From NCBI GenBank assembly GCA_944393255.1, contig CALXZP010000012.1, positions 1-64,000 on the forward strand: a stretch of 64,000 nucleotides of DNA, given 5' to 3'. The translations under genes were made by a program, and so were the position numbers. Positions 358-11,532 of this stretch are shown piece after piece. The first letter of the stretch is position 1, and the number at the start of each line of letters is the position of its first letter. The DNA comes from an uncultured Clostridia bacterium. GTDB lineage: Bacteria > Bacillota > Clostridia > UBA1381. The notes under the pieces were generated by a model. That model had not been told where the DNA came from. It did not search any database and saw nothing but the letters and a program-made list of their open reading frames with translations.

Positions 358-2490
358 CTACCGCCGGTACATAAGCTCGATATAGCAGGTCTCTATCTTC
401 GCCGCCTCAGCGCGGGTAGCGCTGCCCTTCGGCTCAAGCATGTCCTCGCTCCTGCCCCTTATTATACCGCTGCCTACAGCCCATTCCATTGCCTCGACTG
501 CCCAGTCCGACACCTCGCCGCTGTCCGCGAACGCCCCAATCGGCCCGTATTCCTCAGCCGCTCCGCCCTCGAGCCGGTACATCCGGTACAGCATCACAAC
601 GAGCTGCTCGCGCGTTATGCTGTCGCCGCCGCCGAATTCGCCCGGAGCGTAGCCCGCGGCTATGCCGTTTTCCTCCGCCCAGCCGAGGATATCGCCATAT
701 CTCCCGCCAGGATCGCTTCCGGTATAATAATTATGACCGTTTACAGTGAGCTCCAGAAAATCCTCTCTTGTAACGTCGGCGTCCGGAGCAAAGCTGCCGC
801 CGCCGGCGCCGTCGAATATATGCGAGGTGAACAGCACAAAAGGCTCATACCACGCGTTGCTCTCCACATCGCTGTAGCCTATCCCGTACAGCTCCTTTAC
901 GCCCTCAGCCGTATCCGCGATCACCTTTTCATCAAAGATATCGTCAAAGCCCGCCTCCCTGAGCGCCTGCCCGAACGGCACATATCCGCCCAGGGCCGAT
1001 ATTTTCATATATTTATCAACAGCCGCGTCCATATCCCTGTCGGCATCCAGAAGCAGCCTGAGCGCCGCCGCGCCCGATACGGCATATGAGATATAGTACA
1101 TGGGCGCTTCAAAATTGTGAGCCATGCCCGTCCACAGCTCCTGCGCCGCCTGCTCGTTATAATTCAGGTCGTAGTATTTTTTCAGCAGCTCCGTCATTAT
1201 TGAATTTATCTCGCCTACAGTTATATTTTCCGCATCGTAAACGCGGGTCTGAAGCTCGTTGAACATGCATCCGTCAAGTATCGCGCCGACACAGCCCACA
1301 AGACGCATATATCTTTCCTTTGACGCGCCCGCGCCGAAAAGTCCGCCGTAGCAGCTCTCGGCTAACGCTTCGAGCCCCTGCGAATGCACCTCGCAGGTGT
1401 CCATGCAGAACGAGCCGGTGAGCTCTATCGTACCGTCCATGACCGCGGGGTCGTGCAGGAGCGCGCTGAAATGACCGAACTCGTGGATGATGCTGCGTAT
1501 CGCGTCCGCCGCATTGCGTTCATATTCCGACGACGGATTGACGAACATATACGGAACCTTCAGCTCCGGCAGCACAACGGTGTAAGCGCCCGTTACAGGA
1601 TTTTTCTCCTTTGAATACGAAACGTTGTACAAGCCGTTATCCGTCATATAGCTGAACGTCTCGCCCAGCTCGGAGTTTATCGCCGCGGCAGCGTTTCCTA
1701 TTCTTTTAAGCGCCTCGCTTTCGCTCATACCGGCAGCTTCGCCGCGAACGACCATCGACGCATCGAACAGATCCTCTATCATCCCCGAAAAGCTTGCCGC
1801 TACCGCATTTGAAAATTCCTCTATCTGACCGCGCGTATAGTCGCGGTTATATACCGCCTCATGCGCATAGTCTGCATAGCTTTCATAGCCGCAGCATTCG
1901 GCTATCTCTTTTCTGACATTTACAAGCTCTATGTAGATATCGGCGCACGCGCCGCTGTCTCCGGACGAGGCGATATACCGATCTACCAGTTTCTCTTCAC
2001 GTTCGCTCAGCTCGTAATACTCGTCCGGCGGCAGAGACTCCGCCAGCGCTTCGGCATTCGCTTCACCGAACACCTCCGAGAGCGTGTATGCAAAGCGGCT
2101 GCCGTTTATGCGCCCGATCGCATCCGAGAGCTTTTCAAACGAACCGAGCATGGAAGAATAGGCGGAGGACGCTGTCTCCGCCGTTTCGCTGCTGTAAGCG
2201 GCGTCTTTCGCTATCGATGACAGCCTGTACGCCTCCAGGGCGCTGACGTACTCGCCGCAGCATCCTCTCAAAGCCTCCGTGATATCCGATCCGCTGCCGC
2301 TGCTCAGCCCCTCGTCTATGCGTTTTATATATCCGTCGAGCTTGCCCGCATCAAACTGCGCGAACACAAGCTCCTCCGGCGAGACTGTGTGCAGCTCCCT
2401 TTCGCTGTAATACGCGGCTCCCGCCGTGCTCCCGAACTCAAGCAGCATTATAAGCGCCGCGGCCGCGGCTATAGTTCTTTTAAGCTTCAT
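358..2490 (-). CDS. Secreted M3-family metallopeptidase with C-terminal SLH domains
   Basis: This 710-residue protein begins with a typical signal peptide (MKLKRTIAAAAALIMLL, cleaved near AGA-AYY). The zinc motif HEFGH lies at about 336-340, with a downstream glutamate in CEVHSQGLE at about 367 as likely third ligand, the pattern of M3 (thimet oligopeptidase/PepF) peptidases. The last 190 residues contain three divergent SLH repeats, which in Firmicutes hold proteins on pyruvylated wall polymers, so it probably acts on oligopeptides at the cell surface. An upstream in-frame ATG at 2538 is rejected: the ATG at 2490 has GGAGA five bases before it and overlaps the preceding stop as ATGA. It is the last gene of the murD-M42 operon. 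M3 enzymes are usually cytoplasmic or lack SLH domains, so this architecture is uncommon. Confidence 0.85.
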   Translation of the reverse strand: MKLKRTIAAAAALIMLLEFGSTAGAAYYSERELHTVSPEELVFAQFDAGKLDGYIKRIDEGLSSGSGSDITEALRGCCGEYVSALEAYRLSSIAKDAAYSSETAETASSAYSSMLGSFEKLSDAIGRINGSRFAYTLSEVFGEANAEALAESLPPDEYYELSEREEKLVDRYIASSGDSGACADIYIELVNVRKEIAECCGYESYADYAHEAVYNRDYTRGQIEEFSNAVAASFSGMIEDLFDASMVVRGEAAGMSESEALKRIGNAAAAINSELGETFSYMTDNGLYNVSYSKEKNPVTGAYTVVLPELKVPYMFVNPSSEYERNAADAIRSIIHEFGHFSALLHDPAVMDGTIELTGSFCMDTCEVHSQGLEALAESCYGGLFGAGASKERYMRLVGCVGAILDGCMFNELQTRVYDAENITVGEINSIMTELLKKYYDLNYNEQAAQELWTGMAHNFEAPMYYISYAVSGAAALRLLLDADRDMDAAVDKYMKISALGGYVPFGQALREAGFDDIFDEKVIADTAEGVKELYGIGYSDVESNAWYEPFVLFTSHIFDGAGGGSFAPDADVTREDFLELTVNGHNYYTGSDPGGRYGDILGWAEENGIAAGYAPGEFGGGDSITREQLVVMLYRMYRLEGGAAEEYGPIGAFADSGEVSDWAVEAMEWAVGSGIIRGRSEDMLEPKGSATRAEAAKIETCYIELMYRR

Positions 2491-3494
2491 ATCTTTCTCC
2501 ATTCGGCCATACATGCCGCAGCCGTCAGCTTTATACATTCCTCTATATCGCCGATCGACGCCATCTCCGACGGCGAGTGCATATACCTCAGCGGCAGCGA
2601 GACCGCTCCGGCTCTCACTCCCGCGCCGGTGAGCGCGATAGCGCCCGTATCAGTTCCTCCGTCAGTCATGATCTCTCGCTGATATCTGACCCCCTCGCGC
2701 TCGGCTATATCCGTCAGCGCCGCTATCACACGGACATCGCACATCACAGAGCTGTCCATGATCTTTACAGCGGCTCCGCCGCCGAGCTTTACATCCATCG
2801 GCCGGCACGACGGCGTGTCGCCGGTATCTGTCACGTCTACCGCGATGGCATAGTCCGGCATTATTGAAAACGCCGCCGTCTTTGCCCCGCGAAGCCCGAC
2901 CTCCTCCTGCGTGCTGAACACAAAATACAAGTCGTTTTCTGACTTTGCCGCCGTTTCCATAGCCCTCAGAAGGATACAGCAGCCCGCACGGTCATCAAGC
3001 GCCTTTGAGATAACTATATCGCCATTGGAATAAAAGCCGCCGTCGAACACCGCCGTATCGCCGGTCTTTACCGCCTTTTCTGCGGCGGCTCTGTCCTTCG
3101 CTCCGATATCGATATACAGCTTTGAGATGCGCGGCTTCTTATTAAATTCCTCCTCCTCGGAGCCTATCACGCCGATCGTTCCGTTCCCGAAACGCACCCT
3201 GCGGCCTGCAAGATCGCGCGTGCACAAGCCGCCCACGGCTCCGAACCTTATAAATCCGTTTTCGTCCGCAAACGACGCTATTATTCCTATCTCGTCCATG
3301 TGCGCGTCAAGCATGAGCTTTGCGCCCTCTCCGGGCTTATGCGCAATGATATTCCCCATAGCGTCGCTTCGCACGTCATAGCCGAGCTTTTCCGCCTCGC
3401 GCTTTATTACCGAGGCCGCCCCGCCTTCACGCCCGGACGGCGAATCAGCCTCTGTCAGCAGCTTTAAAAGCCGTATCGTTTCCTCCGATCTCAT
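2487..3494 (-). CDS. M42 family metallopeptidase (aminopeptidase), paralogue 3, intact
   Basis: A 335-residue M42 (glutamyl aminopeptidase/TET-like) enzyme, a cytoplasmic di-metal exopeptidase that trims short peptides. All key residues are visible: His65 in DAHMDEIG, Asp167 in ALDDRAG, Glu197-Glu198 in QEEVG, Asp220 in VDVTDTG and His306 in RYMHSPSE. The start MRSEETIRLLKLL aligns with normal M42 N-termini, giving a 50-base overlap with the upstream inactive paralogue. It is coupled to the M3-SLH gene by an ATGA overlap. Exact substrate preference cannot be read from the sequence. Confidence 0.9.
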   Translation of the reverse strand: MRSEETIRLLKLLTEADSPSGREGGAASVIKREAEKLGYDVRSDAMGNIIAHKPGEGAKLMLDAHMDEIGIIASFADENGFIRFGAVGGLCTRDLAGRRVRFGNGTIGVIGSEEEEFNKKPRISKLYIDIGAKDRAAAEKAVKTGDTAVFDGGFYSNGDIVISKALDDRAGCCILLRAMETAAKSENDLYFVFSTQEEVGLRGAKTAAFSIMPDYAIAVDVTDTGDTPSCRPMDVKLGGGAAVKIMDSSVMCDVRVIAALTDIAEREGVRYQREIMTDGGTDTGAIALTGAGVRAGAVSLPLRYMHSPSEMASIGDIEECIKLTAAACMAEWRKI

Positions 3495-4518
3495 CTATTA
3501 TCACATCGCTTTCCTTTATGATCGCGGCGCAAAGTCCCGCCGCGTTATCCAGATCATATCTGTTCATCATGCTTACGGGCGTATTCTTATACCGGCACGG
3601 GATCCCGATACATACCGCCGGGCATCCCTCCGCCGCAGTCAGGACTGCGCCCGCCTCGGTCGAGTGCAGCGAACAGACCTTTTCCTGATACGGCACATAA
3701 TACGCCTCCGCAGTTCTCTTTGCCATTTCGATAAGCCCCGCGCTCCCTATGCTTGCCTTGTCCATATATTCTATGACCGCGCCCGCGCCGAGCCCTGCGG
3801 TATCGCTTTCGCTTTCCTCGCCCACGATATCGGCGGCACTCAGCACGTCCGCTATCACCGCAATATCCGGCTTTATCGCATATGCCGCGCACGCCATGCC
3901 CCTGCCGGGGACGCGGCACGGTATCTCGCGCTGCGCCGAGAACACATAATATGTGTCGTACGCCGGGACGACCTCCATAGCCTTTATAAGGCATATGACT
4001 CCGAACCGTCCGAACGCCTTGCCGCGCAATATGCTGCCGGTCTCGGAAAATTCCGTATCAAACGTTATATAATCTCCTATCTCCACTCTTTTTTCGGCAG
4101 CGCCCTTTTTCGAGCAGCCTATGTCTATATACAGCGAAGAAAGCTCCACCGCCGCCTCGCGCTCCTTTTTCGTTTGCAGATGGATGGCCTTCATGCCTAT
4201 AACGCCCTTTACTCCGCTTCCGATAACAACGCGCTTTGAAACGAGCGTTCTGGGATCTATATATCCCACCGCCCCGAATTTTATATAACCGCTTTCGGTG
4301 ATATCCCTCACTATGAAGCCCGGCTCGTCCATATTCGAGCCGATGAGTACTTTCCTTTTATCCGAGCGCCCGCGCCTGAACGCTATCAGGTTTCCGATGC
4401 TGTCCGTCCTCATACTGTCGCATTTATCCCTTATCTGCTCCGCTATATATCCGCGCACCGCATCCTCACAGCCCGAAACGCCGCTGAGCATGCTCAGCTT
4501 TTTCAAAGAGACAGCCAT
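3445..4518 (-). CDS. M42 family paralogue 2, predicted catalytically dead
   Basis: A 357-residue protein that keeps the M42 length and fold pattern but has lost nearly every metal or catalytic residue that its two neighbours keep. The usual AHMDEIG reads SNMDEPG (His to Asn62). ALDDRAG reads AFGRFG (metal-bridging Asp lost, near 170). QEEVG reads QREIP (catalytic Glu to Arg197). YMHSP reads YKNTP (His to Asn312). The reading frame is open over the whole length with a good ribosome site (GGAGAG nine bases before ATG), so this looks like a maintained pseudoenzyme and not a decaying pseudogene. M42 proteins form large tetrahedral oligomers, so a structural or regulatory subunit role alongside the intact paralogues is possible (inference). 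It overlaps the gene before it by 16 bases and the gene after it by 50. Confidence 0.85.
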   Translation of the reverse strand: MAVSLKKLSMLSGVSGCEDAVRGYIAEQIRDKCDSMRTDSIGNLIAFRRGRSDKRKVLIGSNMDEPGFIVRDITESGYIKFGAVGYIDPRTLVSKRVVIGSGVKGVIGMKAIHLQTKKEREAAVELSSLYIDIGCSKKGAAEKRVEIGDYITFDTEFSETGSILRGKAFGRFGVICLIKAMEVVPAYDTYYVFSAQREIPCRVPGRGMACAAYAIKPDIAVIADVLSAADIVGEESESDTAGLGAGAVIEYMDKASIGSAGLIEMAKRTAEAYYVPYQEKVCSLHSTEAGAVLTAAEGCPAVCIGIPCRYKNTPVSMMNRYDLDNAAGLCAAIIKESDVIIDEIGGNDTAFKAADRG

Positions 4519-5543
4519 GATATATCACTCTCCAATCCTTTTATGAACAGCGTCAGCAGTTCCGTTACAGCCTTTACATCCCTGACGTCGAGCGTTTCGA
4601 CCGAGGTATGCATATATTTGAGCGGTATGGAAAGCAGCGCGGCGGGTATGCCCGGACCTGAGACCTGTATCTCCCATGCGTCGGTGCCTGTGTTTCCTCC
4701 GTCAGCGTCCACGCAGTATTTTATCCCGTTTTCCCGCGCGGTCTTTATCAGCCGTTCGGTGAGCCTCGGATGCAGGTTCGGCCCCTTTGATATGACCGCC
4801 CCGGAACCGGTCTTGAACGCGTTTCTTTCGTTATCCGGAGTTATCCCGTGCGTCACATCCACCGCCACAGCCATATCCGGCATTACCGAATACGCCGTGG
4901 TCTTGCCGCCTCGGCAGCCGACCTCCTCCTGAACGGCAGCCGCAAGATACACGTCGCAGCAAAGCTTTTCATCCTTCAGCCTTTTCATCACCGATACGAG
5001 CGCCGCCGCGCTTGCGCGGTCGTCCATCGTTTTGGAGCTTATCTGGTGCTTGCCGAGCGCCCCCACGGACTGCGGCAGCGTTACCGGATCGCCCGTTTTT
5101 ACAAGCTCCCGAACGCGTTCGGCTTTAAGTCCGGTGTCTATTACCAGCTCGCTCAGCTTATAGCTCTTTGAAGCGTCCGTGCGCTCGGCGGGCATAAAGC
5201 CTATCACCCCGGGTATGTCCTCCGCACCGTGCACCGTCACCTCCAGCGAGGGCAGTATCCTCTCGTCCACCCCGCCCACGTTCACGAACCTCAAAGCGCC
5301 GTTTTCGCATACCGACGATACCATAAGCCCTATCTCGTCTATATGCGCCTCGATAAGCACAGAGGGCGCGTTCTTTCTGCCGCAGCTCCTGTATGCTATA
5401 ACGCTGCCGAGCGGATCTGTCATCACGCTGTCGCAGTAAGGGGTCAGGAGCGCGGCGATCTCCTCGCTCACGCGCGTTTCCCTGCCCGATATACCGCGCA
5501 GTCCGCTCAGCTTTTCTATAAGTTTACGCATGTTTATGACCAT
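4503..5543 (-). CDS. M42 family metallopeptidase (aminopeptidase), paralogue 1, intact
   Basis: A 346-residue M42 peptidase with an intact active site: His67 in EAHIDEIG, TMDDRAS, QEEVG, VDVTHG and YMHTSVE. It is the first of three tandem M42 genes, 28 bases after murD, and should be cytoplasmic. The ATG at 5543 has AAAGGA upstream; a second Met four codons on is the alternative. Three M42 genes are common in Clostridia genomes but usually dispersed. The tandem arrangement after a peptidoglycan ligase suggests recent local duplication. Confidence 0.9.
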   Translation of the reverse strand: MVINMRKLIEKLSGLRGISGRETRVSEEIAALLTPYCDSVMTDPLGSVIAYRSCGRKNAPSVLIEAHIDEIGLMVSSVCENGALRFVNVGGVDERILPSLEVTVHGAEDIPGVIGFMPAERTDASKSYKLSELVIDTGLKAERVRELVKTGDPVTLPQSVGALGKHQISSKTMDDRASAAALVSVMKRLKDEKLCCDVYLAAAVQEEVGCRGGKTTAYSVMPDMAVAVDVTHGITPDNERNAFKTGSGAVISKGPNLHPRLTERLIKTARENGIKYCVDADGGNTGTDAWEIQVSGPGIPAALLSIPLKYMHTSVETLDVRDVKAVTELLTLFIKGLESDISWLSL

Positions 5544-8970: not shown

Positions 8971-10260
8971 CTACAGCGGCTTCACTACCGAAAGCGCCGA
9001 GTTTTCACGCACAAAGTGAGTGTTGAAACGGTCAACGGCGTCCTCGTACGTCACCGTTTTATACACGTCGTAATAATCAAAGTAATCTATGCCCATGAAC
9101 AGCAGCTGTATAAAGGTTACTGCATAGTCCTCTATATCGTTATGCGAGCGGATATATTTGCCCCACATGACCTTTTTTGCGCGTTCGAAATCGCCGCGGT
9201 CAAGCCCCTTATCGCGCACCTTTTCAAGCTCGTCAAGGATGATATCGTACACCCTCTGCGGATCCTTCGATTCGCCCTCAAACGCGGTAAAGCCGTAATC
9301 CGGCTGCATGGTATAGTCCGTAGCAAACGTGTTGTTTATAAGATTCATGTCATAAAGCTTTTTATATATCGCCGAGCCCTTGCCGAGAAGCATGCGCAGC
9401 AGGATTGATATCTCGATATTCTTTTTAAGCAGGCTTTTACCGTCCATGCCCACGTCCGTATCCTTGAAACCCATCATGAACATAGGCGAGGATATCGCCA
9501 TTTTCTTTTCCGCATAAGGCGACGCTATCTGTGCCGGCTCTTCAGGATATATCTTCCTGATAGGCTCGGTGAACGGCTCGTTCTTCTTTATTCCCGCCTC
9601 TATGACCTTTATCTCCCTATCCACGTCCACATTGCCGGTTATGACTATCGCCATATTGGACAGGTTATAAAAGGTCTCATAGCATTTGTAAAGATAATCC
9701 GCCGTTATATGGCTTATGCTCTCGACCGTTCCGGCGATCTCCTTCTTTACCGGGTGTTTGCTGTAAAGGCAGTTTATATAATTAAAGAACAGCTTCCAGC
9801 CCGGGTTATCGTCGTACATGCGTATCTCCTGCCCGATTATCCCCTGCTCCTTAGCAACGGTCTCATCGGTATAATACGGGCTCTGCACGTAGTCGAGCAG
9901 CGCCGCAAGGTTTTCCTCAAAATTTGCGGTCGCCGAGAACAGGTATGCGGTTATATTGAAGGACGTGAATGCGTTTGCGTTGCCGCCGTATTTGGAGAAT
10001 TTATCGAACACATTGCTGCCGTCGGGCTGATCGAACATTTTATGCTCGAGATAATGAGCTATACCGTCCGGCACCTCGGTGACCTCCGTTTCGCCGGGAA
10101 CTATGAATTTTGAATCCACCGAGCCGTAGCGGGTACCGAAAATTGCGTAGGAACCGCTGTATTCCTTCTTCGGTATGATATATATCCCCAGTCCCGAGCT
10201 GTGAACGCCGCAGTACATGCTCTCGCCGGTAAGCTCGTTCTTTCTGAATGTAAGCTCCAT
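8971..10260 (-). CDS. ymfH: M16 family zinc peptidase, YmfH-like (EF-P modification-associated)
   Basis: A 429-residue pitrilysin-family protein with the inverted zinc motif HYLEH at 69-73 and the third ligand Glu145 in GQEIRMYDDNP, so it should be an active protease. It directly abuts the ymfF-like gene (stop and start touch) and has GGAGG five bases before its ATG. The ymfF/ymfH pair is conserved in Firmicutes and has been linked in Bacillus to 5-aminopentanol modification of elongation factor P. M16 peptidases work as active/inactive pairs, which fits here. Cytoplasmic; no signal peptide. Confidence 0.85.
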   Translation of the reverse strand: MELTFRKNELTGESMYCGVHSSGLGIYIIPKKEYSGSYAIFGTRYGSVDSKFIVPGETEVTEVPDGIAHYLEHKMFDQPDGSNVFDKFSKYGGNANAFTSFNITAYLFSATANFEENLAALLDYVQSPYYTDETVAKEQGIIGQEIRMYDDNPGWKLFFNYINCLYSKHPVKKEIAGTVESISHITADYLYKCYETFYNLSNMAIVITGNVDVDREIKVIEAGIKKNEPFTEPIRKIYPEEPAQIASPYAEKKMAISSPMFMMGFKDTDVGMDGKSLLKKNIEISILLRMLLGKGSAIYKKLYDMNLINNTFATDYTMQPDYGFTAFEGESKDPQRVYDIILDELEKVRDKGLDRGDFERAKKVMWGKYIRSHNDIEDYAVTFIQLLFMGIDYFDYYDVYKTVTYEDAVDRFNTHFVRENSALSVVKPL

Positions 10261-11532
10261 TTACGCCTCCTCCTTTCCCGCAAGGAAATAAACAGTGTCT
10301 AACCTGAGCTTTTTTGCCACGTTCGCCACATCGCCGGGCGTTACGCGCTTTATGCCCTCTATGAAAGCTTCAAGCGGCATATCTGTTCCCGCCACCCTGT
10401 CGGACACATAGTAGGTCACGAGCGCGCGCTGGTCGTCAAAATACGAATTGCACAGGTTCAGTATCGCGTTTATGCTCGACTCAAACTCCAGCTCAGTTAT
10501 TTTGCCTTTTCTTATCTCCTCAAGCTGCACAAGCGTTTCATCATACGCCTTTTGGAAATTTTCAAATTCGATCCCGGCGTTTACTATTATCATACCCTTG
10601 AACTTTTCAAGCTGCGACGACGCGTAATATGCAAGCGAAAGCTTTTCACGAACATTGTTGAACAGCTTAGAATGCGCGCCCGCTCCGAAAACGCTGTTAA
10701 AGACCGTCAGTGCAAAGAAATCCTTATCGCCCGGTCTCACGTTCGTCAAAAATCCCAGCGCGAGCTTGCCCTGCGCAACGTCCATATGCTCCGTGACCTC
10801 ATGCAGCTCACCGCCGCCGCGCGTTATTATCTCGGTTGACGGTATCTGCGCGGGACTGAACTCAAGCTTATCGGTATATTCGCGCACCGCGGCGGCGGCT
10901 TCGTCTATGCTGCCGCTGCCGCAGATATAGATATCTATCACCGATGAGGTCATTATGGACGCATAATACTCATAAAGGCTCTTTGCCGTTATCCCGTCTA
11001 TCCTGTCCTTCTCGCCGTAGCGCGGTATCGCAAAGCTCGTCCCCCGCGCCGTTTCCTGCTGACACCGCGCCGACGCGTACTGACGCTTTTCGTTCATAAA
11101 CGCGTCTATCCTGTCCTTAGCGTTAAGCTTTTCCTGCTCAACTATCTTTTCATCAAAAGCGCCGTTTACGGTATACGGATCAAAAACCGCCGACATTATG
11201 AGCTTCAAAAGCCCCGCGACCGGCTTTTCCCCGTCCGGAGCGTAGCTGTCGGAGATGGTTTCCGCGTCAAAATATATTATCTGATCCTCTCCGCGCTTCA
11301 ATACGGTCGCGCCCATCGTAGCGCCGTAAAGGTCGTCGAGATACTTCGCTATCTCCTCCCTGCTCGGGCACAGCGCTGTGCCGCTTTTCAGAACATACGG
11401 CAAAAGCGCGTTCTCCGCCGCCGTTTCCGCCTTGAGAGGTCTGTGTATATACACGCCTATAGACGTGGTCTTAAGCTTTGTCATGCTTATGGATGTAACA
11501 GAAACGTTATCGTTTATCCTTATAGTCTCCAT
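10261..11532 (-). CDS. ymfF: M16 family inactive partner, YmfF-like
   Basis: A 423-residue M16-family protein without an HxxEH motif; the corresponding N-terminal region reads IAKYLDDLYGATMGATV. This matches the non-catalytic half of the YmfF/YmfH pair, which forms a heterodimer with the active YmfH and is associated with EF-P modification in Bacillus. Start choice: AGGAG nine bases before the ATG at 11532. About 110 bases separate it from gpr upstream; I see no strong promoter there, so gpr, ymfF and ymfH may be co-transcribed. Confidence 0.85.
   Translation of the reverse strand: METIRINDNVSVTSISMTKLKTTSIGVYIHRPLKAETAAENALLPYVLKSGTALCPSREEIAKYLDDLYGATMGATVLKRGEDQIIYFDAETISDSYAPDGEKPVAGLLKLIMSAVFDPYTVNGAFDEKIVEQEKLNAKDRIDAFMNEKRQYASARCQQETARGTSFAIPRYGEKDRIDGITAKSLYEYYASIMTSSVIDIYICGSGSIDEAAAAVREYTDKLEFSPAQIPSTEIITRGGGELHEVTEHMDVAQGKLALGFLTNVRPGDKDFFALTVFNSVFGAGAHSKLFNNVREKLSLAYYASSQLEKFKGMIIVNAGIEFENFQKAYDETLVQLEEIRKGKITELEFESSINAILNLCNSYFDDQRALVTYYVSDRVAGTDMPLEAFIEGIKRVTPGDVANVAKKLRLDTVYFLAGKEEA

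Follow-up and report, generated by a model that had tools for sequence, protein, structure and literature searches.

In a tandem triplet of M42 peptidase genes from an uncultured Clostridia bacterium, the middle gene, B, is retained as a pseudoenzyme under purifying selection. Wherever, in the genomes compared, B has lost its catalytic residues, its neighbour A has lost the full-length form of a chamber loop that B itself always keeps. This exchange leads us to propose that A and dead B probably work as a heterodimer in which B lends its loop to the active site of A.

The window, meaning the whole stretch of DNA analysed, comprises 64,000 nucleotides. Its triplet is transcribed from the minus strand in the order A, B, C, with murD directly upstream, and the 2.6 Mb genome has no M42 genes beyond these three:

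4503-5543, minus strand: gene A, first of the triplet; Pfam Peptidase_M42 (3e-77), TM1048/MJ0555-like, HDEEDH, catalytically intact by residues
3445-4518, minus strand: gene B, middle of the triplet; Pfam Peptidase_M42 (4e-58), TM1049-like M42 pseudopeptidase
2487-3494, minus strand: gene C; Pfam Peptidase_M42 (1e-84), TmPep1050-like, HDEEDH, short loop without His, catalytically intact by residues
4528-4533, minus strand: Shine-Dalgarno sequence GGAGAG of gene B, within the last stretch of the A coding sequence, read from the sequence

All three products score above the M42 family cut-off of 23.2 bits (Pfam PF05343), A with 260, B with 197 and C with 284 bits. GGAGAG lies 9 nt 5' of the gene B ATG, and the overlaps amount to 16 nt between A and B and 50 nt between B and C; the middle frame is indeed intact, with a good ribosome site and overlaps on both sides, as an earlier note on this DNA had described. 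The best PDB matches are 9qr6, 4wwv and 1vho for A and 3isx/4p6y for C. The misleading label 'endoglucanase' still stands on PDB entries 2fvg, 3isx and 1vho (TM1048, TM1049 and TM1050 structures).

Two other sets of peptidase genes lie nearby. A gene at 358-2538 (minus strand) encodes an M3-type oligopeptidase with an HEFGH motif and a C-terminal SLH domain. Its start shares 52 nt with the end of C, so that it is possibly part of one operon with the triplet, which would connect cytosolic aminopeptidases with a surface peptidase in an unusual way. The adjoining genes at 8971-10260 and 10261-11532 (both minus strand) form an M16-like pair, one with HYLEH and the other without HxxEH. By motif we take the former to be YmfH-like and the latter YmfF-like, presumably another active/inactive pair.

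Aligned with TM1049, TM1050 and MJ0555, both A and C retain the His, bridging Asp, base Glu, ligand Glu, ligand Asp and His (HDEEDH), in agreement with the earlier reading that paralogues 1 and 3 keep every catalytic residue. The complete set of five metal ligands and general-base Glu is thus present in A and C and absent from B, which has N62, G170, R197, E198, D224 and N312 at the same six positions. Four of the six are replaced, as the same note had claimed and as alignment and codons bear out, and the acidic ligands E198 and D224 are left. The replacements are as follows, with PhTET2 residue numbers taken from PMC8993905 and PMC3511314:

4333-4335, minus strand: N62 of B, for a metal ligand His (PhTET2 H68); codon AAT, by eye
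4009-4011, minus strand: G170 of B, for the bridging Asp (PhTET2 D182); codon GGA, by eye; the DDR motif is one residue shorter
3928-3930, minus strand: R197 of B, for the catalytic base Glu (PhTET2 E212); codon CGC, by eye
3583-3585, minus strand: N312 of B, for a metal ligand His (PhTET2 H323); codon AAT, by eye

Since roughly one ligand per metal site survives and Arg takes the place of the general base, we infer that the gene B product cannot be a normal M42 peptidase. Its fold is nevertheless predicted to be that of a TET subunit with a PDZ-like domain: the AlphaFold2 model of B (pLDDT 91, pTM 0.90, about 70 in the flexible loop) has TM1049 as its best Foldseek match, and VIA Z scores are 45 to 5ds0 and 1vhe and 37 to TM1049. 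The model of A reached a pLDDT of 93.

The degeneracy of B is not a sign of decay. Under a pairwise codon model (GY94 type, F3x4), omega between the window and its nearest relative, G042, was 0.043 for A, 0.079 for B and 0.060 for C, and omega = 1 was rejected for B (2dlnL = 228). Across dead-B pairs dN/dS ranged from 0.03 to 0.24; in the L083 and L090 pairs the B frames take in short upstream in-frame stretches, by which the window pair is hardly affected. The degenerate B also stands in an open frame in all other genomes of the genus whose contig covers it, so that sequencing error, chance or misassembly is ruled out, as is decay by the low dN/dS and open frames. The view that the middle gene is being kept therefore withstood the comparison: its dN/dS of 0.08 is far from 1, and in close relatives it is neither frameshifted nor absent. 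At locus L178 (G436), B is split over two reading frames and flanked by intact A and C genes, a possible recent pseudogene or an assembly error.

A search of related genomes, which the earlier note had proposed, recovered the A-B-C order throughout the coded family of the window genome (matches in 69 of 70 genomes) and in most Clostridia examined. As C resembles TM1050, B resembles TM1049 and A resembles MJ0555/TM1048, the M42 triplet is, judged by these matches, ancient (TM1048-1049-1050 of T. maritima) as well as widespread in Clostridia. B is intact in the other families of the order and in most of the class, and hence the dead form is derived. The window genome shares a coded genus with G033. 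Dead B forms one supported clade in family f1 (SH-aLRT 100). The best tree, built on A and B, places at least five losses of B catalysis, one each in f1 and f19 and three in f43, which rules out a single origin; all five origins were accompanied by loss of the A loop. An earlier tree of A and C, made before f19 and further f43 genomes entered, had given two origins. The 'C' rows of the fragmentary loci L047, L049 and L092 proved to be mislabelled and were left out.

The loops in question occupy the following positions in the window:

5145-5198, minus strand: chamber-loop region of A (FMPAERTDASKSYKLSEL, approximately residues 116-133); shortened, with no loop His, in our loop table
4132-4197, minus strand: chamber loop of B, residues 108-129, GMKAIHLQTKKEREAAVELSSL; loop His113 at 4180-4182

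His113 of B aligns with the chamber-loop His123 of PhTET2. It is present in B of all 213 genomes compared, 82 with dead and 131 with intact B, and across the three families with dead B both His113 and Lys110 are found in 82 of 82, the base Glu in only 6. In the same 213 genomes A and B are always adjacent on the same strand, and the active site of A is always intact. The loop of A behaves differently with intact and with dead B. Of the 131 genomes in which B is intact, 123 have a full-length Pro-His loop in A; of the 82 with dead B, none has. With intact B it is KPPHLQ-like, the ancestral form, with about 31 residues between the flanking motifs; with dead B the number is typically 28 or 25, and in nine dead-B genomes an A loop that is shortened or shifted still contains a His. 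Within f43, the lineages with intact B retain the A loop. Gene C does not drive the loss, since the A loop His is retained in 51 of the 54 genomes that combine dead C with intact B; C itself almost never carries the loop His (4 of 182).

Gene C has a degenerate history of its own. It is dead in most f43 and many f19-related genomes in which A and often B are intact (L159, L162, L168, L188-L215; L219-L234), and in f43 and part of f19 this dead C, with neither catalysis nor loop His, is retained all the same. In f1, one genome (L073, G056) has a dead C (N,S,K,E,D,F) beside intact A and B. At the f19 loci L236-L245 and L274-L285, the M42 set seen is down to a pair, an active A with a dead B, which suggests that these two are sufficient.

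An independent-pairs sign test found about three of four starred pairs concordant and none discordant (p 0.25), a result underpowered by the few origins. Because so small a number put significance out of reach for that test, we ran a Pagel-type likelihood test, which favoured correlated evolution (LR 30.9, p 3e-6), although it rests on one tree and clade effects can inflate it. The likelihood test also favours loss of B after loss of the A loop; G234 and G577, in which B is intact and the A loop His is lost, stand beside G564 with dead B and look like intermediates on the way to dead B. The reciprocal loss of A loop and B catalysis, at five origins only, is strong but not final. With so few origins, and with most of the 82 dead-B genomes in three clades, the association might reflect no more than common descent within a few large clades, B decaying slowly while the A loop changed for another substrate range. 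We hold such independent drift to be quite improbable, as dN/dS far under 1 and frames open throughout speak against decay, and the association appears separately in f1, f19 and f43, including the f43 lineages where intact B goes with an A loop.

The distribution of constraint along B is uneven, and of all its features the chamber loop is conserved best. Positions relaxed in dead B are mostly those of the active site (62, 170, 197, 224, 285-288, 312 and neighbours), and the C-terminal catalytic part is looser in dead B than in intact B (mean entropy 1.90 versus 1.54). The PDZ-like and loop region is tighter (1.18 versus 1.43), and residues 66-160 of the PDZ-like region include 24 near-invariant positions in dead B against 9 in intact B. 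The earlier note had offered two roles for the middle protein, a subunit of a mixed particle or a binding protein. Our data favour the former. A role of its own for B, as a regulatory or peptide-binding protein outside any assembly with A, would fit the predicted intact fold, the strong purifying selection and the survival of D64, E65, E198 and D224 in window B. We nonetheless give it little credence, for B adjoins A in every one of the 213 genomes, its loss of catalysis is coupled to the state of the A loop, and its pocket residues vary freely between clades, unlike those of a selected binding pocket.

We therefore turn to A and B as partners. Crystal structures of PhTET2 suggest that the loop His123 may be near the active site of the neighbouring subunit, and mutating the loop weakens substrate binding by as much as tenfold (PMC8993905); TET particles are built from dimers, and PhTET2 and PhTET3 give heterododecamers in vitro (PMC4220976). 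The B. subtilis M42 paralogues YtoP and YsdC were crosslinked in cells as a heterodimer (PMC10090944; PDB 9a5r). On these grounds A and B would be the halves of an obligate M42 heterodimer, from which a TET-like particle is built up. In the ancestral A:B dimer, each active site would have combined the metal centre of one subunit with the substrate-stabilising loop His of the other, the A loop serving the B site and the B loop serving the A site. In this lineage, and independently in others, the A loop and the B metal centre would have been lost, leaving one working site per dimer, with metals and base from A and with scaffold and His113 in trans from dead B. C would be a second active M42 subunit, co-translated, in particles of its own or mixed ones.

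Such an exchange predicts both halves of the loop and catalysis comparison. If A and B pair in a dimer, the B loop must always be kept because the A site is always active, and the A loop becomes useless once B is dead. What is observed directly is the loss of residues from B, the purifying selection on it, the conservation of its loop, the loss of the A loop, the recurrence of both, and a specificity for A and B that does not extend to C. The physical A:B dimer, the action of the loop in trans and the dodecamer are our inference, and we regard the whole as the probable, though by no means certain, explanation. Against it, the loop is not indispensable, since C-type enzymes such as TmPep1050 are active without the loop His; action in trans is only suggested by crystal structures, with His-to-site distances of 4 to >20 A; and the dead C kept in f43 and part of f19 is evidence that some dead subunits persist without that loop.

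The same dead C, without the loop His, would suit a different and less likely account, in which B is merely a scaffold needed by A, or by A and C, for assembly, its loop serving packing or gating and the loss of the A loop being a side effect. The subunit loops of TET2 do touch one another and take up about 30% of the chamber volume (PMC8993905), and the PDZ-like domain of dead B is strongly conserved. A scaffold, however, predicts neither a loss of the A loop confined to dead B and not seen with dead C, nor that a flexible loop (pLDDT about 70) should have an invariant His and an invariant Lys in three unrelated clades. We prefer the heterodimer with its loop in trans. The broader proposition, that obligate asymmetric M42 heterodimers evolved repeatedly, with the trans loop of A lost first and the metal centre of B afterwards to give composite half-of-sites enzymes, seems to us about evenly balanced.

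The fold, the two-domain layout and the chamber loop of window B are those of known TET aminopeptidases (MEROPS M42: PhTET2, TmPep1050, CelM), and TM1048, TM1049 and TM1050 match the window triplet gene for gene; unlike these enzymes, window B is missing four of the six key residues, and window A is missing the loop His. The PhTET2-PhTET3 heterododecamer (PMC4220976) likewise unites two M42 paralogues in a single particle with dimers as its units, as proposed here, but both its subunits are active and homodimers were mixed in vitro, whereas for the window one subunit is dead and an A:B pairing within the dimer is proposed. YtoP-YsdC (PMC10090944) is, like the putative A:B, a heterodimer of two bacterial M42 paralogues, although the portion of that work we could consult does not treat catalytic state or a division of labour between loops. 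The closest working analogy is the mitochondrial processing peptidase alpha/beta (M16B), in which a dead paralogue, alpha, lends a loop needed to bind substrate to an active one, beta (PMC11266112). Its fold and family are unrelated and the likeness is one of mechanism only; A and B show the pairing of genes and the complementarity of loop and catalysis, and B may in addition bind A and lend it a substrate loop.

The M42 fold and family, hetero-TETs and pseudopeptidases in general are already known. Our literature search on M42 pseudoenzymes and hetero-M42 sets found no account of an M42 pseudopeptidase, of its recurrence or of the exchange of loop for catalysis, and M42 is absent from a 2024 review of pseudoenzymes among the metallopeptidases. 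If our reading is true, this would be, as far as that search showed, the first described class of M42 pseudopeptidases, and many 'M42 family peptidase' annotations in Clostridia would sit on non-catalytic proteins. The chamber loop of TET enzymes would act between subunits, a point raised but unsettled for PhTET2, and evolution would have run the trans-complementation experiment several times. The triplet would then provide a clear bacterial case of complementary degeneration turning a homomer into an obligate heteromer.
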